DNA of 54,107 bases. Origin: a virus. The notes below the pieces were generated by a model. It ran no database searches. It was not told where the DNA came from and saw only the letters and a list, made by a program, of their open reading frames with translations. The stretch covers positions 1-54,107 of IMG/VR virus record IMGVR_UViG_3300005617_000340; one strand, 5' to 3'. Positions 5,119 through 35,179 of this stretch are shown here, in pieces. The position numbers and the translations under genes were made by a program. The first letter of the stretch is position 1. Each line of letters opens with the position of its first letter.

Positions 5119-6402
5119 TTACTTGCTCCTTTTCTTCGGCTTGTGTCCATTGCCATAGCCGTTCGTCTTGGCGCTCAGACGTTGAGAGCGAATCTCCTTC
5201 ACTCCGGCCTTATCTCCCAACTTAGGAATCGACGGAGGCACTTTCCAAGCCCTCGCATATATATTGTAGCCTTGAAGCTCAAAGTCGATCCTCTTGAATC
5301 CGCGTTCCGTGAGCATGCCTTCAAGCACTTTGGGAGTGAAACAGAACTTGTGGAAGTTTTCGCTATAAGTTTGCGCTCCATAGAGAACGTTTAGAACATC
5401 ATCATTCATGGCGCCGGCCTTGATCTGATCAGCCGCCCACTCGATGTTCGGAAGGACGAGGCGCAACTCTCCATCCGGCTTCATGATGCGAATCCATTCA
5501 TCCAAGACACGATTTACATCTGCCCGGGGGAAATGCTCGAGGACGTGAGAACTGAACACCACATCCATTTCTCCGGTTGCGAACGGCAAAGAGCCTAAGT
5601 CCGCGCGATAGTCGACGCCGGGTAATTCTCGGATGTCGACTCCAAGAACTTCGCCTTCGCCAGTCTCGTATTTGCTCTCACCACAACCGAGATCGACAAT
5701 CTTCTTGTCGCCCTTCTTGACACCGGCTCTGCGCATTGGCAGGCAATCCGGAGGCAGTTTCGTTGGCTGCATAGTGTCGCAAGACCAGTGATCTGCAATT
5801 ACCGAGGCATCCGCCCAAATGGATCCGTCGCCGTATACGTCTTTGACCTGCGCACAGAAACTCAGATCTTCTGTCCAGACTTCTCCCTTGGGTACTCCAT
5901 CCCAATATGCCTGGAAGTTGTCGATCGTTCTGAAGTATGGCTTCTCTAGTTTCTTGAAGACGTCAACTCGGATCAGAGTGCAACCCATTGCAATCCCATC
6001 GACTTCAAAGAGTTCGCCTAAGTGCCAATCCCAATATGGCCCCTTACCAAGACCGCGGAAAATCATCGGCATCGGGGGAGGCGATTTGTGACAATAAATT
6101 CCACCAACCACCATCATTTCAGGGTGGTGCTCCATCTGATAAATCAATTGTCGAAGAGTGTGACCCGGTGCCGCCACATCTTCATCGAGAAAGAACAGAT
6201 ACTTGGAATTCTGCGCGATTGCCTGCTCTGCAAACCAGTTCCGCGCTTTGTCGATCGGCTGCATCCAGGTAGATGCGGTTGTCATGTTGAAGCACATGGG
6301 TGGGTGAAGCTGCGAGTAAGCAAAGATCATTTGGGGGTGAACGGGTCTTCCGGACAGAGGAATCCCGAAAGTCAATCCGGTAAACATCGGATATCCAGCC
6401 AT
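5119..6402 (-). CDS. Fused glycosyltransferase-methyltransferase
   Basis: 427 residues. Residues ~1-225 look like a GT-A glycosyltransferase (nucleotide-sugar donor): KYLFFLDEDVAAPG supplies the acidic metal-binding motif, and a later ...VDGIAMGCTLIRVDVF and TEDLSFC match this fold. Residues ~235-400 are a class I SAM methyltransferase, with the SAM-binding VDLGCGESKYETGEGE followed by LGVDI and an acidic SSHVLEHFP loop. A basic tail (KPKKRSK) ends the protein. It lies between tail-fibre and further glycosyl/methyltransferase genes, suggesting that it builds or caps sugars on virion proteins or host glycans. The two-enzyme fusion is seen in one open frame. Confidence 0.85.
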   Translation of the reverse strand: MAGYPMFTGLTFGIPLSGRPVHPQMIFAYSQLHPPMCFNMTTASTWMQPIDKARNWFAEQAIAQNSKYLFFLDEDVAAPGHTLRQLIYQMEHHPEMMVVGGIYCHKSPPPMPMIFRGLGKGPYWDWHLGELFEVDGIAMGCTLIRVDVFKKLEKPYFRTIDNFQAYWDGVPKGEVWTEDLSFCAQVKDVYGDGSIWADASVIADHWSCDTMQPTKLPPDCLPMRRAGVKKGDKKIVDLGCGESKYETGEGEVLGVDIRELPGVDYRADLGSLPFATGEMDVVFSSHVLEHFPRADVNRVLDEWIRIMKPDGELRLVLPNIEWAADQIKAGAMNDDVLNVLYGAQTYSENFHKFCFTPKVLEGMLTERGFKRIDFELQGYNIYARAWKVPPSIPKLGDKAGVKEIRSQRLSAKTNGYGNGHKPKKRSK

Positions 6403-7761: not shown

Positions 7762-7770
7762 GCAGAGATA

Positions 7771-8874
7771 TTAATAAGAACTCTGGGCCCAATTCCAGTA
7801 AATTCTTTGATTGCTCGCAAGATTCCTCATGTCGGATGTCCCGACATTCGTAGGAGGAACCGTGCTGGTAGACGCATACGATCCGTGAAACTGTTGAAAC
7901 ATTGAAGAAGAATTAGAGACGGACTGACCTAATCTCTTGAACCCTTGCCCGACAAATTCAGATACATAGACACGACTCTGAGTTGTCATCATCGTTCCTG
8001 TACTATAGTTCGTACCGGAGGAACTAGATGAACTGCTATACATATTAGCAAGCCAATAATCTCCAGCCGGAAGCGTCGTTGCAAAGGGAAATAATTCAAA
8101 CCGACTACCAGTAATGTATGCTGCTACTCCTGTAATTAAATTATCAGCCAGGGTCGATGCCGCAGTGCTAACCGCAGTTGATGTAGAACCCGACTGCGAT
8201 GTTGAACTGTATGTCACTCCACCAGCGGTATTCCACTGAGCAGGGAAGCTGGCTGTTAAGAAATTGGAAATGACAACGCCAGTTGTTGTACCACCAACCA
8301 CACTAGAAGTAACACGACGCTCCCAGGTAAAGAGCATCGAACAATCGGCGCTCCAAATTGATTCGAGTCTTGTAGTGTTCGCTCCAGTTCCTAATTGATA
8401 AAGCGCAAGTTTGTTACTAATCGTTTGTGTGAGAGTTACCGATCCTGTGCTTACAGATGAATAGACAGCCCCATTCTTAAAGATCGAAGAATTAACGGCC
8501 ATCAGAATTCCAATCTGACCGCTCGTTAGCGCAAAGGGAAGGAAGAACGGATCGAAATACCAAGTGCCAATACCTGCTGTCACCATGTTCGAAGCTACCA
8601 CAGGCAAGGGCTCAAAATAGCCCAGAGTATCGAGTCCGGCTGTAAGTCCACCGGCGCCCGTCGCACTTGATAATCCATTGTTGAAAGAAAAGAGGCTGGC
8701 TATCTCGGAGCCGGTAAGCGAAAGAGTCAGATTGTGTGCCGAATTCCAATCGGAAGGACGAACAATATTTGTTGCTAGAACCGAAGCCGATCCACCAGAA
8801 CTATTCCCAACCGTGACTGTACCAGTCCAGTCGGCAATGGTGTCGCTCTTAGCATGTTGAATAGTAAGCGGCAT
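7771..8874 (-). CDS. Virion surface/decoration protein
   Basis: 367 residues, Ser/Thr/Gly-rich, beginning MPLTIQHAKSDTIADWTGTV. The phrase VRPSDWNSAHNLTLSL is typical of phage tail-associated surface proteins I have seen. Serine runs (SSSSSSG) mark flexible loops. It lies between a methyltransferase and a glycosyltransferase and may be a target of these enzymes (inference). Its start overlaps the stop of the methyltransferase gene by one base. Confidence 0.7.
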   Translation of the reverse strand: MPLTIQHAKSDTIADWTGTVTVGNSSGGSASVLATNIVRPSDWNSAHNLTLSLTGSEIASLFSFNNGLSSATGAGGLTAGLDTLGYFEPLPVVASNMVTAGIGTWYFDPFFLPFALTSGQIGILMAVNSSIFKNGAVYSSVSTGSVTLTQTISNKLALYQLGTGANTTRLESIWSADCSMLFTWERRVTSSVVGGTTTGVVISNFLTASFPAQWNTAGGVTYSSTSQSGSTSTAVSTAASTLADNLITGVAAYITGSRFELFPFATTLPAGDYWLANMYSSSSSSSGTNYSTGTMMTTQSRVYVSEFVGQGFKRLGQSVSNSSSMFQQFHGSYASTSTVPPTNVGTSDMRNLASNQRIYWNWAQSSY

Positions 8875-9440
8875 TAAAGTTCTAGCTTCCTCAGCAACGC
8901 GCCAGATGGCTGAGACTTGAATGCAAAGGCCAAAAGATTCATTCCATCGCTCGCCGTCATGACTTTTACAAATCCTGCTTCGCTCAGAGTCTTAGCAAGA
9001 GAATTCTCAAGGAATCCTGTTTTGTGGCAGTAGTACAAGTTCCCTTGAGAGATCATCTTACCCCATCCATAGATAACATCGTGAAATGATATAGGGCCGC
9101 CTGGAGAGTTGTACCAAATCTCATTAATATCCCGGCCGCTCGCTAGCGCTTCAAAGACCGCGCTCATGTCTGGAACTGCTATATGTGCAAAGCCGCTCGG
9201 CTTCAACACGTGAAGAAATCCCTTCAAAACAACAGGAACCTCGTGCCTATGAAAATGCTCGAGGTTCTGAAAACAAATGACGCCATCATACTTTGAGGGT
9301 CGAAGAGTTCTTAGCTCTCTTGCGTCACATACAATATCAGGATTGACTCTAGGATCTATATCAAGCGAATCCTGATTCCACCCCTTATAAATCTCAGGAA
9401 CATCTTTAGACCCGCCGCTGCCTACGTTTAGTAATCTCAT
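8874..9440 (-). CDS. SAM-dependent methyltransferase
   Basis: 188 residues. Begins MRLLNVGSGGSKDVPEIYK with the glycine-rich SAM loop at the extreme N-terminus, then SLDIDPRVNPDIVCDAREL, QNLEHFHRHEV and GFLHVLKPSGFAHIAVPD, in class I methyltransferase order. Such short forms usually act on sugars or small molecules in cell-surface glycan clusters. Start overlaps the stop of the small gene at 9437-9607 (ATGA), so the two are translationally coupled. Confidence 0.85.
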   Translation of the reverse strand: MRLLNVGSGGSKDVPEIYKGWNQDSLDIDPRVNPDIVCDARELRTLRPSKYDGVICFQNLEHFHRHEVPVVLKGFLHVLKPSGFAHIAVPDMSAVFEALASGRDINEIWYNSPGGPISFHDVIYGWGKMISQGNLYYCHKTGFLENSLAKTLSEAGFVKVMTASDGMNLLAFAFKSQPSGALLRKLEL

Positions 9441-9607
9441 TGCGGAGATTCTAGTAAAGAGGCAAGGTGTGGCGCAATGGTCAATTTTTCACCAAGCTTA
9501 CTCATTGCATCAGCCAGGGTTCTCCCAGAAGCTGCGACATCATACAAGCACACATACCAAATACCATGTGCGCTCAATACAATGTCGAGCTTCTGAGAGA
9601 AGTACAT
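9437..9607 (-). CDS. Small hypothetical protein (56 aa)
   Basis: A 56-residue frame, MYFSQKLDIVLSAHGIWYVC..., read leftward. Its ATG overlaps the TGA of the structural gene ending at 9607 and its TGA overlaps the ATG of the methyltransferase at 9440. This double overlap strongly supports it as real although it is short. No recognised domain. Confidence 0.65.
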   Translation of the reverse strand: MYFSQKLDIVLSAHGIWYVCLYDVAASGRTLADAMSKLGEKLTIAPHLASLLESPQ

Positions 9608-10116
9608 CAGTTCGAAATCGTATAGCTAATGCTCAATGTGTTGCTGGTCGCCTTGCTGATTGTCGAGAACGTCACGTGACTCAACATCGTGCCGGCCGTC
9701 GCCGCAGACGTGTTGAACAAACCAGCTTCACCTAGAGTTCCGGTCGCCTGGTCTGTTGCGAACGTGACTTCCGCGCGCCAGCTTGGAGGATTGCTGGTCA
9801 GGTTTGTCGTCGTCATCGTACCGATGGTGAGACGACCCACTGTCGCAGTAATCTCTGAGCCGAGTGCTGTGTCCGATGTCGCCGGCGCTGTGGTCGACGT
9901 TCCAACAGCGATCGAATTGATCGTAGTAGACGGAGGCGAAGATGACTGGATACGTTCAAGAACCCACCGGCGCCCCGCGGTGACTACCGTGTTGTCGACC
10001 TTCCGATAATCGATCTGCTCACCGGTCTCGGCGTTGTACACCCCGATCTCGATGCAGCCACGCAAATGGATAACATCGGATAGTTCATTCTTCTTACTGA
10101 TCTTTCTCTTGGCCAT
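9607..10116 (-). CDS. Phage tail/head structural protein
   Basis: 169 residues from the second of two consecutive ATGs (better spacing from GGGAGC). Begins MAKRKISKKN. The middle (GEQIDYRKVDNTVVTAGRRW) followed by a Thr/Ser/Ala-rich beta region is a pattern common in phage tail-collar or decoration proteins. The stop overlaps the start of the next small gene. Confidence 0.7.
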   Translation of the reverse strand: MAKRKISKKNELSDVIHLRGCIEIGVYNAETGEQIDYRKVDNTVVTAGRRWVLERIQSSSPPSTTINSIAVGTSTTAPATSDTALGSEITATVGRLTIGTMTTTNLTSNPPSWRAEVTFATDQATGTLGEAGLFNTSAATAGTMLSHVTFSTISKATSNTLSISYTISN

Positions 10117-11861: not shown

Positions 11862-12401
11862 TTAAGGCTGTTTAAGATACGTGAAAATCACGATCAGTGT
11901 TGCTATCAACCCAATTCCAGCAATGAGATAACCCCAACCAGAATTGAGGCCGGCGCCTCGCCCTTGCTGTAAAGATATCGCCGCCGCAATCGGCGCCAGA
12001 GTCGCTTCGAGTTTCTCTACAGCGGCTTTAAGATCATCCTTAGTTGCATATAATCCTCGCTCGCTGTTGATTTGTTCGCGAAGCTCGTTCGCTTTTTCGT
12101 CTTTATAAATCTGAATCTGACGAGCAAGATCCAGAGCATCTCGATCAGCTTGCTCTTTAATCTTCAGAGCTTTTTCACGCTCTTGTGCTATTTCATAATA
12201 TCTGCGATCTCTTTCTCCGTGCGTTAAAGCTCGTTCAGCAGCGATATCAGCATATCTGCGATCTCTTTCCTGAAGGATCGCTACATTCATTTCTCTCATC
12301 AGACTGATAGCTAGTAAATCGTCTTCACGTAATCGCCTAAAATGCTCATGAAGAGTATCTACAGTCCATCCACTGACCTGCTTTTCAGTTTCTCCTGACA
12401 T
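11862..12401 (-). CDS. Coiled-coil protein with C-terminal membrane anchor
   Basis: 179 residues from MSGETEKQ, chosen because TGGAGAT precedes that ATG. A longer start at 12440 overlaps the upstream gene. Central coiled coil with repeated ERDRRYADI / ERDRRYYEI units, then a C-terminal transmembrane helix (GWGYLIAGIGLIATLIVIF). A common phage architecture next to holin genes. Could be a spanin-like or tail accessory protein. Confidence 0.65.
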   Translation of the reverse strand: MSGETEKQVSGWTVDTLHEHFRRLREDDLLAISLMREMNVAILQERDRRYADIAAERALTHGERDRRYYEIAQEREKALKIKEQADRDALDLARQIQIYKDEKANELREQINSERGLYATKDDLKAAVEKLEATLAPIAAAISLQQGRGAGLNSGWGYLIAGIGLIATLIVIFTYLKQP

Positions 12402-12439
12402 ATCTCCATCTAAATGGTAACAGGAGAAAACGAACGGCA

Positions 12440-13063: not shown

Positions 13064-13726
13064 TCAAGAGGCTAGTAAAATCATCTCGGGCTTGCCATCC
13101 CACGTAAAATTCCACAGCTTCATGATCTTTTGTAGAGCCTCTTGCCTTACTTGTTCGGTCTGGCGATGCAGAGACAAATAAAGAGGAATCTTCAAATTTC
13201 GAATGAATCCAGCCATAGCTGGAAGGATCAGAGCTTCCGCACCTTCAACGTCCATCTTAATCAAACCACAATCGGTTATCTTGTGCTCTGTAAAGAACTC
13301 TTCCAGCGTGACAGTTTTTACCTTGATGCCGTTCTCGGAGCACATTAGAGAAGATTCGGAATTCCCCCATTGACTCTTATTTCCAAAGACCGCGGTGCCG
13401 GCTGTGTTTGATATCGCCCTTGAATCCAAAGTCACGTTCCCAATCTTATTCTCCACAAGATTGTATTCCAATTCATTGAGCGCGATCGGATCGGGTTCGA
13501 CAGCATAAACCCATCGACATCTGCGCGCGGCGTATAAGGTGAAAGGGCCTACCCAGGCGCCGATATCGACAAAAGAATTGTTGGCAAGATAGAGATCGAG
13601 AGATCGAAAGAACCACGGCTCCCAAAGACCAAGCTCAACCTGGTCCCAGAAATCCCAAGTTCTGGTGAGTGGTGAACTGACTACCCTGAATGACTCGCCG
13701 CAGATTTCAACGAATCTCCAGTTCAT
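13064..13726 (-). CDS. FkbM-type SAM methyltransferase
   Basis: 220 residues from the ATG whose first base overlaps the upstream stop (TAATG). A longer frame starts at 13747. FVDIGAWVGPFTLYAA is the SAM loop, VYAVEPDPIALNELEYN the acidic second strand, and DCGLIKMDVEGAEALIL the FkbM signature. Family members O-methylate sugars or related surface groups. Fits the nearby glycosyl/methyltransferase set. Confidence 0.88.
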   Translation of the reverse strand: MNWRFVEICGESFRVVSSPLTRTWDFWDQVELGLWEPWFFRSLDLYLANNSFVDIGAWVGPFTLYAARRCRWVYAVEPDPIALNELEYNLVENKIGNVTLDSRAISNTAGTAVFGNKSQWGNSESSLMCSENGIKVKTVTLEEFFTEHKITDCGLIKMDVEGAEALILPAMAGFIRNLKIPLYLSLHRQTEQVRQEALQKIMKLWNFTWDGKPEMILLAS

Positions 13727-14265
13727 TAGGATTCCGTCCAACTCCAACGCAGAGTCGGGGTCGCTACGGAAGCTCCGGCGGTTGTATTTGTCGCATCGAC
13801 ACCGAGGGTCACTTCAACGAGATTGCCCTTTCTGCCTGTAGTGCTGAAGGGGCCGGCTGCATAAACCGAAGCCACATTGATAACCGGGACTGCAATGACG
13901 TTGGTGTTGTTGCCGCCAGCAGGAACAACCGGAGCGGTCACATTGTTGTCCCCGGTATCGGCCGGCGCAGCCGTCGCCTGAACATAAGAGCCTTCTGCGT
14001 GGTCAGTTCTATGCCATAGTTTGGTACCGGTAGTCGTCTCATTGGCGACCTTTCCGATCATAACGCTTGTCATAGACAAGGAACCGGTGGCTGTGATCTC
14101 GAGGATAAAGGACTTGACGTAGGAAAAGGCGGTGCCGGTGGCGGTCGGTGTCGGTATTGGCGTTACGCCTACCGCGTCGTCAATTCGAGAGAACTTGACA
14201 GCCGAAACCGGGGCGATGCTCGGCCCAGATCCGGTCGCCAGGTCTATTTGTACCGTCATCGCCAT
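13726..14265 (-). CDS. Phage structural protein
   Basis: 179 residues, first gene of the leftward block, preceded by GGAGG eight bases before its ATG. Beta-rich and Thr/Val/Ala-rich (TGSLSMTSVMIGKVANETT, NVIAVPVINVASVYAAG), ending TLRWSWTES. Composition is typical of head-tail or decoration proteins. No enzymatic motif. Confidence 0.68.
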   Translation of the reverse strand: MAMTVQIDLATGSGPSIAPVSAVKFSRIDDAVGVTPIPTPTATGTAFSYVKSFILEITATGSLSMTSVMIGKVANETTTGTKLWHRTDHAEGSYVQATAAPADTGDNNVTAPVVPAGGNNTNVIAVPVINVASVYAAGPFSTTGRKGNLVEVTLGVDATNTTAGASVATPTLRWSWTES

Positions 14266-16031: not shown

Positions 16032-16039
16032 TCACTTAT

Positions 16040-16577: not shown

Positions 16578-16651
16578 GCCGGTGTGATGCAATTGGCAGA
16601 CATGGTAGTTTCAAAAACTATCTCTTAAGGGTTCGAGTCCCTTCATCGGCA
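16578..16651 (+). tRNA. tRNA-Leu(CAA), short variable loop
   Basis: Acceptor GCCGGTG/CATCGGC, anticodon stem GTAGT/ACTAT with loop TTCAAAA. Variable loop CTCTT, A73. Confidence 0.87.
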
Positions 16652-18045: not shown

Positions 18046-18050
18046 CTTGA

Positions 18051-21496: not shown

Positions 21497-21676
21497 ATGA
21501 AAAGACTCACCAAGTATCACATCCCTTGTTTACTGGCAGAGATCGACCGGTGGAAAATGAGGCGAGCCATTCAAATGGTGCCTTGGAAATACTTCTACGA
21601 AATCGCCAGAAACCAAGTTTCTCGCCCACGTAGCTCAGTTGGTGGAAGCACCGCCTTGGTAAGGCGGCGGTCGTGA
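21497..21676 (+). CDS. Possible small basic protein running into tRNA-Thr
   Basis: 59 codons, MKRLTKYHIPCLLAEIDRWK..., the last ~16 of them inside the tRNA-Thr gene. No ribosome site. The first 43 residues look protein-like and no other gene fills the gap. Weakly supported. Confidence 0.35.
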   Translation: MKRLTKYHIPCLLAEIDRWKMRRAIQMVPWKYFYEIARNQVSRPRSSVGGSTALVRRRS

Positions 21677-21697
21677 GTTCGAATCTCACCGTGGGCC
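21624..21697 (+). tRNA. tRNA-Thr(GGT)
   Basis: Acceptor GCCCACG/CGTGGGC, anticodon stem CCGCC/GGCGG with loop TTGGTAA, T loop TTCGAAT. Confidence 0.93.
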
Positions 21698-21701
21698 TTT
21701 C

Positions 21702-21774
21702 GGCAACGTAGCTCAGTTGGCAGAGCACACGTCTCATAAGCGTGCCGTCGCGAGTTCGAATCTCGCCGTTGCCA
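21702..21774 (+). tRNA. tRNA-Met(CAT) 2
   Basis: Acceptor GGCAACG/CGTTGCC, anticodon stem CACGT/GCGTG with loop CTCATAA, A73. Body differs from the first Met tRNA, so one may be a lysidine-type Ile tRNA for AUA. Confidence 0.9.
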
Positions 21775-24408: not shown

Positions 24409-25069
24409 ATGGAAACAGCAGTCATTGAAGTGCGAGCGGCAGAGGGCGGTGACGACGCCAAGCTGCTTGTAACCGACCAAATCAGAGCCTATATGTATGC
24501 CGCGCAGCGGAGGCATCTTTAGGGTTGAGCTCATAGACGAACGGCCAGGATTTGCAGCATTGACGCTCGAAGGCCCTAAAGCCTATGAGATATTCAAACA
24601 AGAAGCAGGCGGGCACCGATGGCAAAGAATTCCTCCAACTGAAAAACGTGGCAGAGTCCAGACGTCAACCGTCACAGTAGCGATCTTTGAAATCAAAGAT
24701 AGTAAGAATCCTGATTTAACGGACATCGAGATCCGAACGACCCGCGGTACTGGTCCAGGAGGGCAGCATAAGAACACAACAGAAAGTTGTGTGATTGCAA
24801 CCCACCGTCCAACCGGACTACAAGCCAGAGCAGATATGCGCTCTCAACATCAAAGCAAAGCGATGGCACTGAAGATCCTGACTGCCAAACTCTTAGACAG
24901 AGACAAGCAGATAACACAGGAGACGCAAGCAGCCGATCGACGAAAGCAGGTTGGAAGCGGAATGCGTGGTGATAAAATCAGGACATACAGCAGCCGGCAC
25001 AATCATGTGGTGGATCATCGCACAGGAAAGCGCTGGAAACTAAACGCCTGGATACGCGGAGAATGGTAA
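24409..25069 (+). CDS. Short RF1-like peptide chain release factor, made by +1 frameshift at CUU UAG
   Basis: Strong ribosome site (ACGGAGG) then METAVIEVRAAEGGDDAKLL, matching the EIRAGxGGDEA region of RF1/RF2. Frame 0 stops at UAG 24520-24522 right after CUU 24517-24519. The +1 frame continues RVELIDERPGFAALTL... to 25069, giving a 219-residue protein. It has GGHRWQRIPPTEKRGRVQTS (P-x-T as in RF1, not SPF as in RF2) and GPGGQHKNTTES (GGQ peptidyl-release motif), then a basic C-terminus. The N-terminal RF domain 1 is absent. The junction carries GGAGG, three bases, CUU, stop, as in bacterial prfB. Expected to release peptides at UAG/UAA and to sense its own activity at the UAG. Domain-1-less relatives (RF-H/ICT1 type) act in ribosome rescue, which is an alternative role. 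Confidence 0.9.
24508..24522 (+). promoter_or_regulatory. Programmed +1 frameshift site
   Basis: CGGAGG (internal Shine-Dalgarno) followed by CAU, then CUU and UAG. Spacing from the Shine-Dalgarno to the slippery CUU equals that in E. coli prfB, where the stop is UGA. Skipping the U of UAG puts ribosomes in the downstream frame. Confidence 0.85.
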
Positions 25070-27478: not shown

Positions 27479-27648
27479 TGGGAACACTGAGCGAGCCTGT
27501 AAAGATCGAAGGCAAATGTCCGAAGTGCGGTGATGATTCTCAACATACGTATCAAATCTGGACTTCGTATGACGAAGCCTTCGAAGATGAAAAGCACAAG
27601 TGCGGAGCCTGCAACTTTATCTGGTGGATTGACGGCATAGATTCATGA
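27478..27648 (+). CDS. Small zinc-ribbon protein (56 aa)
   Basis: MGTLSEPVKIEGKCPKCGDD..., 56 residues with CPKCG and CGAC pairs. Start overlaps the previous TGA and its own TGA overlaps the HNH start, a coupled trio. Confidence 0.7.
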   Translation: MGTLSEPVKIEGKCPKCGDDSQHTYQIWTSYDEAFEDEKHKCGACNFIWWIDGIDS

Positions 27649-28982: not shown

Positions 28983-29095
28983 ATGCAAAGGCGCGACAGC
29001 ACTGCTAGCACCGACTGAACTTAGTAGCAGACGACCCTACATAGGGCAACGTTATAAGTGGAAGTATCAGTTCAGCCCGGTAAGCGCCTTTGCAT
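28983..29095 (+). ncRNA. Pseudoknotted structured RNA h
   Basis: Outer 12-bp perfect stem ATGCAAAGGCGC/GCGCCTTTGCAT. Inside, CTGAACT/AGTTCAG forms a second helix, CCCTA/TAGGG a hairpin, and CTGCTA can pair TAGCAG across the second helix (pseudoknot). TTTTG follows the outer stem. A compact, stable RNA of unknown class just upstream of the Ubl/Ro cluster promoter. Confidence 0.6.
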
Positions 29096-29122: not shown

Positions 29123-29151
29123 TTGACAGGCATAAAAAGATCGGTTACTAT
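29123..29151 (+). promoter_or_regulatory. Sigma70-type promoter of the Ubl/tRNA-mimic/Ro cluster
   Basis: TTGACA (29123-29128), 17-base spacer, TACTAT (29146-29151), ~30 bases before the ATG at 29181. The best promoter match in the right half of the tRNA region. Confidence 0.75.
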
Positions 29152-29180: not shown

Positions 29181-29408
29181 ATGAGCGCAGTATTAAACTA
29201 CGAGAGAGTTCACATTCGGTTCGAAGGTCGTTCTTTGGATCGCTCGGCGCAGGAGTTGGGAATTGTTGGATCTATGTCTGACGAACAGATTCGTCAGAGG
29301 ATTGCAAACGATCTCGACGTCAGCCTTGCAGCGTTGTCCAACTACGCAGTAGACCGCAACTCTGAGTCTGCTTCGTTGACGATCCGACCGGAAGCTGTAT
29401 ACGGCTAA
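29181..29408 (+). CDS. Putative ubiquitin-like small protein
   Basis: 75 residues, MSAVLNYERVHIRFEGRSLD... with AAGGAG upstream. Size, an initial beta hairpin, a helix around SMSDEQIRQRIANDLDV, a closing strand SASLTIRPEAVYG and a C-terminal glycine fit a ubiquitin-like fold, though sequence identity to ubiquitin is not evident. Lies in the same cluster as an E1/ThiF-like adenylyltransferase (34538). Most Ubls end in GG; this ends YG. Fold and conjugation are inferred. Confidence 0.55.
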   Translation: MSAVLNYERVHIRFEGRSLDRSAQELGIVGSMSDEQIRQRIANDLDVSLAALSNYAVDRNSESASLTIRPEAVYG

Positions 29409-29489: not shown

Positions 29490-29570
29490 ACCGCGCTACG
29501 GCTTGAGAGGCATACACACAACAATCTTGAAAATTGTGCAAGTGAATCCTGCTTCTCTGAAACGCGCGGT
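29490..29570 (+). ncRNA. tRNA-mimic RNA unit 1
   Basis: Terminal stem ACCGCGC/GCGCGGT, internal loop TACGGC opposite GAAA, second helix GAGAGGCA/TGCTTCTC, then ACAC-containing linker. The cap is a single anticodon-arm-like hairpin ACAAT-CTTGAAA-ATTGT (loop as in a UGA-anticodon Ser tRNA). Smallest of the five units. Confidence 0.72.
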
Positions 29571-29582
29571 TATACAGTTCTC

Positions 29583-29656
29583 GCGGCGGAGTGAAACGGA
29601 AATCATCATTCATGGCTCATAACCATGAGATAGTGGGTTCGACTCCCATCGCCGCA
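29583..29656 (+). tRNA. tRNA-Met(CAT) 3
   Basis: Acceptor GCGGCGG/TCGCCGC, D arm TGA/TCA, anticodon loop CTCATAA, T arm GTGGG-TTCGACT-CCCAT, A73. A complete, normally ordered tRNA standing between tRNA-mimic units 1 and 2. Confidence 0.85.
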
Positions 29657-29679
29657 TCCAATATTAGTTCTTTGAATTC

Positions 29680-29819
29680 GCCGCGCAATGGCAGGATAGG
29701 CTTACATACTAGCTCAACGGTAGAGCGCACCACTATGAATGGTGAGGTTGATGGTTCAAATCCATCGTCGGGGTAAAACTCGAAACTCAGCTTTTCCGAA
29801 ACGCGCGGCAAAATAATTG
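29680..29819 (+). ncRNA. tRNA-mimic RNA unit 2
   Basis: Terminal stem GCCGCGC/GCGCGGC, internal loop AATGGC opposite GAAA, second helix GGATAGGCT/AGCTTTTCC, then TACATAC. The cap is in normal tRNA order: D arm GCTCAACGGTAGAGC, anticodon arm CACCA-CTATGAA-TGGTG (ATG), T arm GATGG-TTCAAAT-CCATC. The acceptor strand does not pair with upstream sequence but folds TCGGG back on CTCGA, so no aminoacylatable end exists. Confidence 0.8.
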
Positions 29820-29871
29820 AATGTGATTGGCTGAGTGATTCTTTGTGGATCACAAAGTCTTTCCCGCACTA

Positions 29872-30002
29872 CGGCATAAGTGGCGTACATACAGCCAAAC
29901 AGAAAGTCACAGGTTCAAATCCTGTATCCCCTGCTTGAGGGGGATTAGCTCAGTGGTAGAGCGTCTGTGTATAATGTTGCAGCCTCTTAGAAACGTGCGG
30001 GA
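29872..30002 (+). ncRNA. tRNA-mimic RNA unit 3, permuted
   Basis: Terminal stem TCCCGCAC/GTGCGGGA (compensatory changes against the other units), TACGGC/GAAA loop, second helix TAAGTGGC/GCCTCTTA, GTACATAC. The cap is circularly permuted: anticodon-stem 3' strand ACAGA, T arm ACAGG-TTCAAAT-CCTGT, acceptor 3' strand ATCCCCT, short loop, acceptor 5' strand GGGGGAT, D arm GCTCAGTGGTAGAGC, then anticodon-stem 5' strand TCTGT, which pairs with ACAGA. The module is open at the anticodon and closed at the acceptor end. Confidence 0.85.
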
Positions 30003-30090
30003 CACCTATTGAAATGGAAACCAGCTTGGTTGTGACGTGTTGAGATTATCTATGAATCAAGACGAGTTGGTTTCCTCATACTTTGATTTT

Positions 30091-30221
30091 TCCGCGCTAT
30101 GGCTGGTCGAGCGTACATACGGAGAAAGACGAGACTCATAATCTTGTTAACCTGGTTCGAATCCAGGGACCGCCACCACTTATGGCGGTCCAAACAAAAA
30201 CGCACTTCCGAAACGCGCGGA
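30091..30221 (+). ncRNA. tRNA-mimic RNA unit 4, permuted, no D arm
   Basis: Terminal stem TCCGCGC/GCGCGGA, TATGGC/GAAA loop, second helix with GCGT/ACGC, GTACATAC. Cap: anticodon arm ACGAGA-CTCATAA-TCTTGT (CAU), T arm CCTGG-TTCGAAT-CCAGG, acceptor 3' strand GACCGCC-A-CCA, CTTA, then acceptor 5' strand GGCGGTC. The encoded CCA is inside a loop. No D arm is visible. Confidence 0.82.
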
Positions 30222-30261
30222 TATGCTTTTAGTATTGAGACAAGAAAAGTCCGGAGGCCCG

Positions 30262-30408
30262 ATGGTGGCGAGAGTCGGCGGTCTTGAAAGTTTGATTCCT
30301 GCAATTCAAGAGGAATTGAATATAACGCACGGACTCTATGAAGCCCTAATAAGGCTGGATCGTACACGAGGCTCTGGATACGAGGGAGCTTATCGAGATG
30401 CTCTCTGA
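30262..30408 (+). CDS. Small hypothetical protein inside the RNA array (48 aa)
   Basis: 48 residues from MVARVGGLESLIPAIQEELN with GGAGG five bases before the ATG. Helical, ends YRDAL. Lies between mimic units 4 and 5 in the same direction. An earlier in-frame start at 30223 lacks a ribosome site. Confidence 0.5.
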   Translation: MVARVGGLESLIPAIQEELNITHGLYEALIRLDRTRGSGYEGAYRDAL

Positions 30409-30470
30409 GGCTTGAAAAGTTGCAAGCTGCGATCCAACAGAAGTTGGATGAAGCTCTTTGATTAAAGTTT

Positions 30471-30590
30471 TCCGCGCTACGGCCGGATTTGTGTACATAC
30501 AATATTCAGTGAGATTCTGAACCCCCTCCACCACTTATGGGGGGGAACCGTAAAGGTTACTGTAAAGACCACAAGTTCAAAACGCGCGGA
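30471..30590 (+). ncRNA. tRNA-mimic RNA unit 5, permuted and degenerate
   Basis: Terminal stem TCCGCGC/GCGCGGA, TACGGC loop, second helix GGATTTGTG/CACAAGTTC, GTACATAC. Cap: a T-arm-like hairpin TTCAG-TGAGATT-CTGAA, acceptor 3' strand ending CCCCCTCCA, CCACTTA loop identical to unit 4, acceptor 5' strand TGGGGGGG, and a small D-like hairpin AACC-GTAAA-GGTT. Anticodon arm not evident. Confidence 0.75.
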
Positions 30591-30639: not shown

Positions 30640-30670
30640 GGGTCCGCACACGCGGACCCTTTTCTTTTTG
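30640..30670 (+). terminator. Rho-independent terminator after the RNA array
   Basis: GGGTCCGC-ACAC-GCGGACCC perfect 8-bp stem followed by TTTTCTTTTT. Ends the array transcript before the HNH gene, which has its own GGAGG next to the U-tract. Confidence 0.85.
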
Positions 30671-30679
30671 GAGGCCCCC

Positions 30680-31279
30680 ATGTCAGCCAAGAAAGCGTCC
30701 GACAAAAGATTCTATCTCCCTTACTACAAGGACAATCCTGACCGTCCAGTCTATGTCGAAGACATAGGTAATCTTCTGAAGATTTCTGGTGTGATCTTCC
30801 AGGGTATGGGAGCGCACCTGATTTGCCTGACTCCCTCGGGATCGATCTTCAATATAGACGACGCTAATGTTGTCCAGCCTTCTTTCGAAGAGTGGGGCGA
30901 CATCATCCGTCGCTCTGACGATCCGGAAATCTTCATCGGAGACGTCGGCGGTTTGAATAAGATCCTACATAGAAAAGTTCGTTGGGAAATCAGTGGCGTA
31001 ACCCAACAGAAGGTGTGGGCAAGAGACAATTTCAAGTGTATGTACTGCGGCCGGCAGATGGGGGAAGTTCAACTGACCATCGATCATTTCATCCCCTTGG
31101 AGCTAGGCGGCGCCAACGACACAAGCAATTATCTCTCAGCCTGCAAACGTTGTAACAAAGACAAAGGAATGAGAGAACCTCTCGAGTTCTGCACCGATAA
31201 AGGATACGACTATTCGGCATTGGTCAGACACTTGAGAAACTACACCATGTTGAAGGAGACTAATGATACAACTCGGTAG
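30680..31279 (+). CDS. HNH endonuclease with an extra N-terminal domain
   Basis: 199 residues from MSAKKASDKRFYLPYYKDNP, with GGAGG five bases upstream. Residues ~20-105 form an unassigned domain (VYVEDIGNLLKISGVIFQG, IFIGDVGGLNKIL). The C-terminal half is HNH: CMYCGRQMGEVQLTIDHFIP-LELGG and CKRCNKDKGM. Placed between the tRNA-mimic array and the Ro60-like gene; it might cut nucleic acid for that system, or be a mobile nuclease that has settled there. Confidence 0.85.
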   Translation: MSAKKASDKRFYLPYYKDNPDRPVYVEDIGNLLKISGVIFQGMGAHLICLTPSGSIFNIDDANVVQPSFEEWGDIIRRSDDPEIFIGDVGGLNKILHRKVRWEISGVTQQKVWARDNFKCMYCGRQMGEVQLTIDHFIPLELGGANDTSNYLSACKRCNKDKGMREPLEFCTDKGYDYSALVRHLRNYTMLKETNDTTR

Positions 31280-31526: not shown

Positions 31527-33119
<1,593 letters not shown>

Positions 33120-34239: not shown

Positions 34240-34538
34240 ATTTACTCGAGGTTATGGAAACGGCGACTCTGGCGTATCCTGATGAATTCCTAAGTGAGTA
34301 TTACAACGAAGAGGGATTACCCAACCATGTTGCCGGTCTTCCACTTGGAGCAGGCGGCGATACTCTTGCGGAGTTTATCGTCAATGAGCTTTACGAGAAA
34401 TGGAATGAAACCGACGACGAGACTCCCGACCACGAACGAGTAGAACTTTGCGCTGAAGCCATTCGAACCGCCCAGGACGAACTGGATAAGGTCGCAGAAG
34501 CTTTGGAAGATTTTGCAAAGAGACTAAGGAGCAAATAA
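34227..34538 (+). CDS. Acidic helical hypothetical protein (103 aa)
   Basis: 103 residues from MGRLDLLEVMETATLAYPDE. Acidic, helical (HERVELCAEAIRTAQDELDK), LAEFIVNELYEKWNET in the middle. Overlaps the genes on both sides (its TAA overlaps the next ATG), so it is part of the same operon. Confidence 0.7.
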   Translation: MGRLDLLEVMETATLAYPDEFLSEYYNEEGLPNHVAGLPLGAGGDTLAEFIVNELYEKWNETDDETPDHERVELCAEAIRTAQDELDKVAEALEDFAKRLRSK

Positions 34539-35179
34539 TGGCAGACTCAACTCTTCACGAAGAATTATATAGATCAAAGGAGGCCATGAAGCGCTTACAG
34601 ACTTTCAAGGTGCTGGTATGCGGCGCCGGCGCCCTCGGTTCTAATATTCTTGAGTCTCTAGCTCGTCAGGGATTCACGAAGCTGTGCGTTGTAGACTTCG
34701 ATAGAGTCGAAGATCGTAATCTATCAACGCAGCCGTACGGCCGACAAAACATAGGACAGAAGAAAACATCAGCCATCGTGAACAAGATCTACAGGGATCT
34801 CGAAATCGACATCCTATGGCAAGCAGTTCACATGGATGCTGGTAACGCCGGGAAATTCATCAAGGGATGGGATTTGATTGTGGACGCGTTCGACAACGCA
34901 CCAAGCCGCAACATCGTGGCTATCAGAGCGAAGCAAGAGAACATTCCTTGTCTCCATGTAGGGATCGCCGAAGATGGAAATTACTCAGAAGGAGTCTGGA
35001 ATCAGGTCTACTCGATACCAGGTGAGATCGAGGATTCAGAGATCTGCAACTACCCTCTCGCCAGAAACCTAGTTTCCATCACTGTTGGTCTAGCATGCGA
35101 ATTGATCGTACAATTCGCAACAACTGGAGTTCAGAACACATTCACCTTTACATTCAAGGACTTAACGATTAACAGGTAA
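34538..35179 (+). CDS. ThiF/E1-like adenylyltransferase
   Basis: 213 residues. FKVLVCGAGALGSNILESLA is the nucleotide-binding glycine loop; CVVDFDRVEDRNLSTQPYG supplies the D-x-D and conserved Arg/Asn; QKKTSAIV gives the conserved Lys; LIVDAFDNAPSRN is the second acidic motif. A late SEICNYP Cys could be the thioester or metal Cys. There is no separate C-terminal domain, as in minimal bacterial E1s that adenylate the C-terminal Gly of ubiquitin-like or ThiS-like proteins. Candidate partner: the protein at 29181. Confidence 0.88.
   Translation: MADSTLHEELYRSKEAMKRLQTFKVLVCGAGALGSNILESLARQGFTKLCVVDFDRVEDRNLSTQPYGRQNIGQKKTSAIVNKIYRDLEIDILWQAVHMDAGNAGKFIKGWDLIVDAFDNAPSRNIVAIRAKQENIPCLHVGIAEDGNYSEGVWNQVYSIPGEIEDSEICNYPLARNLVSITVGLACELIVQFATTGVQNTFTFTFKDLTINR

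Follow-up and report, generated by a model that had tools for sequence, protein, structure and literature searches.

The segment between coordinates 29863 and 30001 of the window, i.e. the entire 54,107-base virus record that was analysed and in which 39 tRNA genes were called, is very likely a Y-RNA-like noncoding RNA, with a basal stem that would dock a Ro60-fold protein and a head that would mimic tRNA. It is the third of five units with a common stem, which occupy positions 29490 to 30590 (Table 1). The preliminary description had placed it at 29872-30002; the element itself was real, but it starts at 29863, and the 5' strand of its outer stem (29863-29869) had been cut off. The same description had read the unit as a tRNA body in rotated order with its opening at the anticodon, and the sequence, the fold and a descriptor search all agree with this. 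From 5' to 3', the head consists of the T arm, the 3' strand of the acceptor, a 6-nt loop, the 5' strand of the acceptor and the D arm, and is closed by a 5-bp anticodon stem. The arms pair as had been claimed, including ACAGA with TCTGT in the anticodon stem, which was found both in the sequence and in the thermodynamic fold. The basal stem is in two parts, an outer and an upper helix separated by an internal loop. Inspection of the sequence as encoded revealed no CCA and no anticodon loop, the latter being absent because the Ro-type stem occupies its place. Unit 3 cannot decode, since its acceptor is sealed and it has no anticodon loop, and with no free CCA end it is not chargeable as encoded, as had been proposed.

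Table 1. Features of the RNA array and of its surroundings, in window coordinates (E-values are rough)
Feature	Position	Strand	Basis or detail
Promoter-like site before small ORF	29123..29151	+	consensus match only
Small ORF	29181..29408	+	family sits upstream of Ro in 62/80 related loci
Unit 1: common stem, short head without tRNA arms	29490..29570	+	R1 30.0 bits
Unit 2: common stem, tRNA body in normal order D-AC-T, acceptor-opened	29681..29808	+	R2 60.5 bits, E 1.4e-13
Unit 3: Y-RNA-like unit with circularly permuted tRNA head, anticodon-opened	29863..30001	+	sequence, fold, R1 match 29865-29999
Unit 3, outer (Ro-type) stem	29863..29869 with 29995..30001	+	sequence, fold, stem detector
Unit 3, upper helix	29877..29884 with 29982..29989	+	sequence, fold
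Unit 3, conserved motif	29886..29892	+	TACATAC
Unit 3, anticodon stem, 3' strand	29899..29903	+	ACAGA
Unit 3, variable segment	29904..29908		AAGTC
Unit 3, T arm	29909..29925	+	ACAGG TTCAAAT CCTGT
Unit 3, acceptor stem including closing loop	29926..29945	+	
Unit 3, acceptor strands	3' strand 29926..29932, 5' strand 29939..29945		7 pairs, one G-U
Unit 3, acceptor-closing loop	29933..29938		6 nt, GCTTGA
Unit 3, dinucleotide between acceptor 5' strand and D arm	29946..29947		TA
Unit 3, D arm	29948..29962	+	GCTC AGTGGTA GAGC
Unit 3, anticodon stem, 5' strand	29964..29968	+	TCTGT
Unit 4: common stem, AC arm, T arm and acceptor, D arm missing	30092..30220	+	R1 25.0 bits
Unit 5: common stem, degenerate rotated head	30472..30590	+	R1 27.2 bits
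Terminator-like hairpin and T run after unit 5	30640..30668	+	consensus match only
Ro60-fold protein, HEAT-like ring and vWA domain	31539..33119	+	Pfam vWA_Ro60, predicted structure

All arms of unit 3 were recovered by the thermodynamic fold (z -2.97), and 1 of 200 shuffles folded equally well. A descriptor comprising T arm, closed acceptor and D arm matched the whole window at two places on the plus strand and at none on the minus strand, and only the match at 29909 also has an anticodon stem with 5/5 pairs. The other one, at 16627, is the junction of two tandem tRNAs, with just 2/5 pairs in that stem. When the whole window was shuffled 200 times with dinucleotides preserved, the descriptor matched once, even without the anticodon-stem test, and these counts reject a chance origin of the arrangement.

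The other units of the array share the stem of unit 3 and are opened elsewhere, a difference that the preliminary description had missed. In unit 4, the acceptor carries ACCA and a CTTAT loop, and the anticodon arm is perfect, with the loop CTCATAA. The acceptor loop ACCACTTAT is common to units 4 and 5, both of which also keep ACCA at the acceptor 3' strand. The array lies between the small ORF, for which no Pfam or NCBIfam match was found, and an HNH ORF followed by the Ro60-fold ORF. The promoter-like and terminator-like sites suggest a single transcript for the small ORF and the array, promoter-like sites being no commoner in this region than in shuffled sequences. Three HNH endonuclease ORFs are found near the array, at 27645, 28392 and 30668, and the last of them (30668-31279) separates unit 5 from the Ro gene. 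Units 1 and 2 are separated by a tRNA-Met(CAT)-like gene (29583-29656, 43.2 bits) whose D arm is unusual, and a blastn search of the array region against phages returned a tRNA-Met match only. A further structured element (28983-29095), with 12-nt perfect inverted ends (-42.2 kcal/mol, z -4.3) and not of the Ro-stem type, lies ahead of the small ORF, separating it from an HNH ORF. Elsewhere, the window encodes a short release-factor-like protein with a GGQ motif (24497-25069), best matching release factor 1 with the N-terminal part missing, and a ThiF-family ORF (34538-35179).

The Ro60-fold ORF begins 1.5 kb downstream of unit 3. Its product passes the Pfam vWA_Ro60 threshold (33 versus a cut-off of 27.7 bits), gives no Pfam TROVE match and falls below the NCBIfam Rsr equivalog cut-off (18.6 versus 900 bits). 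A structure model based on 21 aligned sequences reached a pLDDT of 80.4, whereas an earlier model from 2 sequences was poor (51.9). VIA-align superposed this model on human Ro60 with a Z of 20.8 over 433 residues (rmsd 4.5), on Deinococcus Rsr with a Z of 20.3 and on the Ro60 of Thermus phage phiLo (9l5y) with a Z of 18.3, and Foldseek gave an E-value of 5e-11 against Ro60/Rsr structures. The predicted protein thus matches the Ro60/Rsr fold over its whole length. In this respect, and in having Y-RNA-like units in the locus, the system resembles known Ro60/Rsr ribonucleoproteins, including those of phages (phiLo, Streptomyces and Mycobacterium phages), although the sequence is too distant for the TROVE and Rsr models and the closest relatives identified come from cyanobacteria. 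Phage-borne Ro proteins as such are known already, as PMC7824862 mentions TROVE proteins carried by phages and having 'a tRNA-like partner' in cellular organisms. Among viral contigs, the Ro protein as lone query found none, the stem patterns gave 0 matches, and alignments A1 and A2 retrieved a single locus, L004.

Bacterial genomes were searched using three phage proteins as queries, which yielded 210 relatives, the best 80 of which were kept as related loci. Nearly all of these 80 are cyanobacterial by record title, with 45-50% identity, and the RNA family, which the preliminary description had not recognized, is widespread in cyanobacteria. The stem detector called 268 units in 77/80 loci, 251 upstream of Ro and 17 downstream, and in all 65 loci whose upstream DNA extends over 3.5 kb or more there is a unit upstream of Ro. 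The order small ORF, RNA array, Ro gene also recurs in cyanobacteria, and linkage to the Ro-fold gene is conserved. Over 84 loci and the window, the detector called 280 units versus 5 on the reverse strands; it mispairs some capped modules of the 595-kb phage LR756511.1 (L001) and may call false units in L001 and L004.

Covariance models were built without any window sequence. Model R1 was derived from alignment A4, which holds 25 cyanobacterial-family units out of the 49 called with T-acceptor-D heads. When R1 was run on the 54-kb window, unit 3 ranked first and matched over the full length, with 76.8 bits and an E-value of 7.2e-15 (rough, as are those of R2, by the tool's own statement). The other four units scored 30.0 to 21.3 bits and were interleaved with partial matches to junctions of tandem tRNAs, the best of which reached 31.9 bits (21667-21728, model positions 39-101). 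In the 80 related loci, R1 gave 92 matches of 54.5-141.1 bits. For normal-order heads, the 20 units of alignment A6 were reduced by L055, whose head belongs to a different class, to give A7, and model R2 was made from 19 units; on the window it ranked unit 2 first, again over the full length, with ordinary tRNAs giving partial matches of up to 40.6 bits. Both sides change in 18/33 pairs of the 25 A4 units, and 94.0% of the A4 cells are paired, as compared with 85.0% after shuffling and 31-45% in slid versions. The exception to this strong covariation is the anticodon stem, with 70.2% of cells paired, which is due in part to the presence in A4 of heads that lack a complete anticodon arm beside others that have one. 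At gathering thresholds, Rfam lists no units of this class in the five cyanobacterial loci checked. These sequence comparisons support the membership of unit 3 in a Y-RNA-like, Ro-linked RNA family of cyanobacteria.

The closest known RNA is YrlA, described in PMC8394870 as a basal stem with D, T and acceptor arms that is bound by Ro/Rsr, modified by TruB and DusA and linked to PNPase. In YrlA of Salmonella and others (RF02553), both ends form the basal stem, the head contains T, acceptor and D arms, the anticodon stem joins the basal stem and a Ro60-type gene is adjacent. The YrlA-like topology noted previously is upheld: unit 3 has the order T arm, acceptor, D arm, an anticodon stem running into the basal stem, a Ro60-fold gene as neighbour and relatives in a Y-RNA-like family. 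However, it differs from YrlA in the sequence of its basal stem, in its loop and in its tandem array of five, and its sister units are opened elsewhere or have no tRNA head. As a candidate member of the Rfam YrlA family it was rejected, with 32.2 bits versus a gathering score of 69 (E 1.2e-4 in 1688 bases). This sub-threshold score, the missing TROVE match, the low Rsr score, the weak anticodon stem, the lack of a full-length R1 match in L003 and of a convincing unit in L004, and the rough E-values of R1 and R2 are points against the Y-RNA reading.

Genes of red and green algae and of Thermofilum in which the tRNA 3' half precedes the 5' half, with a short loop at the acceptor, share the order of unit 3, and the preliminary description had considered both a kinship with such permuted genes of algae and archaea and a processing into a working tRNA. 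An RNA spliced and end-processed in this way, as in red algae and some archaea, would account for the permuted halves with an intact body, for the ACCA of units 4 and 5 and for the perfect anticodon arm of unit 4. It is nevertheless highly improbable for unit 3, where a Ro-type stem replaces the anticodon loop and a 6-nt loop lacking CCA seals the acceptor; the cyanobacterial relatives likewise keep a stem in place of that loop. The hallmark of permuted tRNA genes is, according to the review PMC3978253, the BHB motif. No strict BHB with flanking helices of 3 or 2 bp was found at the junction of unit 3, and the two relaxed one-bulge matches include the outer Ro stem itself. With neither a BHB at the junction nor an encoded anticodon, and a conserved Ro-type stem instead, the kinship is not supported. 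Very little probability is also left for a by-product of tandem tRNAs, i.e. a 3' half, a spacer and the next 5' half caught by chance in a stem. R1 does match real tandem junctions in part, the CTTGA in the loop of unit 3 equals the tRNA-Cys/tRNA-Leu spacer near 18046-18050, and the loop CCACTTAT of units 4 and 5 resembles the tRNA-Arg/tRNA-Leu spacer TCACTTAT (16032-16039), but such junctions have no anticodon stem, outer stem or upper helix, all of which are present in unit 3, their best score is less than half that of unit 3, and the class is conserved and covarying in cyanobacteria. A tandem-tRNA junction is a fair idea for the origin of the rotated heads and fails as their present identity; a recent origin from the tandem tRNAs of this very phage is weakened by the same class, with similar loops, in cyanobacteria.

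Somewhat less improbable, though still unlikely, is a decoy whose rotated head would absorb tRNA-cutting nucleases of the host defence and thereby shield the numerous tRNAs of the phage. The many tRNA genes of the window and the anticodon arms kept in units 2 and 4 are in line with it, and PMC7790460 proposes the tRNA-like domain of YrlA as a possible competitive inhibitor of an anticodon nuclease. Yet the anticodon loop that such nucleases read is missing from unit 3, the conserved Ro stem would be needless, and the same units on cyanobacterial chromosomes imply a role that is not phage-specific.

Y RNAs are believed to guide the Ro ring towards its partners. In a Y-RNA-like unit 3, the outer helix, internal loop, upper helix and TACATAC would form the docking site for the Ro60-fold protein, and the head would be rotated such that the anticodon stem runs on into the docking stem while the acceptor is sealed. 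We infer binding of Ro by this stem from the stem itself, the gene linkage and the published work on Salmonella YrlA and Deinococcus Rsr. By analogy with the same two systems, as presented in PMC8394870, PMC7790460 and PMC8058203, the head may tether or orient the Ro ring to a factor reading the tRNA elbow, or to an RNase such as PNPase. The phage would in this case have a Ro-RNA surveillance particle of its own, which it probably obtained from cyanobacteria or has in common with them.

The heads on the common stem were classed by strict rules, using the 280 detected units and 4 added by hand. Out of these 284 heads, 85 could be classed, the 199 unclassified ones being in many cases short or missing one strict rule, whereas 0/14,200 shuffled heads were classed. 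Anticodon-opened T-acceptor-D heads (39) and acceptor-opened D-AC-T heads (38) make up most of the 85; five are AC-T-acceptor-D heads, opened between the D and anticodon arms, two are AC-T-acceptor heads without D arm, one of them unit 4 of the window, and one, in L001, is a T-acceptor-D-AC head opened in the variable region. A hairpin resembling an anticodon arm seems to precede the T arm in at least five of the T-acceptor-D units (L007, L016, L020, L066 3986 and L050 3558), and some of the 39 may therefore be opened between the D and anticodon arms. In the minimum-energy fold of the variable-region unit (L001 5402-5547), the T arm and acceptor are kept and the D and anticodon arms are not. 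L001 also contains seven modules of the reverse design, in which the Ro stem is capped by a short loop; neither the window nor the 80 related loci nor the reverse strands contain any. Three of the seven (4807, 6987 and 7490) fold into tRNA-like shapes in which the acceptor is open and the Ro arm precedes the anticodon arm, and two others have less clear folds.

These heads could represent a series of circular permutations of tRNA on one constant Ro stem, a rotatable adaptor pointing the Ro ring, with the heads of an array as a toolkit; we put this forward tentatively and consider it slightly less probable than its negation. The tRNA shape would turn the Ro ring towards different faces of a tRNA-recognising partner, and in LR756511.1 the RNA ends themselves would have moved, with the Ro stem capped and the acceptor open. 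Relative to the open-licence papers searched, both the family in cyanobacteria and the occurrence of several rotations on a common stem appear to be new. With one stem carrying the tRNA body in different rotations, it becomes possible to ask which face of tRNA is read.

ARAGORN placed 106 of its 256 tRNA calls in the 85 sequences inside Ro-type units (one gene counted twice), and certain unusual tRNA genes in cyanobacterial and phage sequences are therefore probably Y RNA heads. Annotators should be aware that such heads can pass as tRNA genes. Acceptor-opened heads in L005-L084 (e.g. L009 5116-5188) are called tRNA genes with odd anticodons, 16 as 'Pyl' and 26 as 'Leu', since TACATAC takes the role of the 5' strand of the acceptor.

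Among other phage loci, Mycobacterium phage Sparky (L002) contains an unannotated YrlA-like RNA (2329-2453; Rfam YrlA 36.6 bits, R1 40.6 bits) between a tRNA cluster and the annotated Ro-like gene, just upstream of the latter. Streptomyces phage StarPlatinum (L003) gave no full-length R1 match. The third phage-contig relative, L004, yielded no convincing RNA unit, the one detector call having an implausible 389-nt head; there, a single ORF (7770-9743) encodes a fusion of the small upstream protein and the Ro protein, and a JAB-like (11901-12413) and a ThiF-like ORF (13364-13996) are found nearby. In L001, a Ro-type unit at 5680-6010 has a head of ~280 nt containing ACGGTCATAAGGTAGCGA and GGTAATGACGGCCA, which we take to resemble 23S rRNA helices 69-71; blastn of this unit against E. 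coli genomes gave no match. Finally, a capped Ro-type stem without the ACAAAC motif (L001 8957-9000) lies directly before the Ro start codon and could let Ro regulate its own mRNA.
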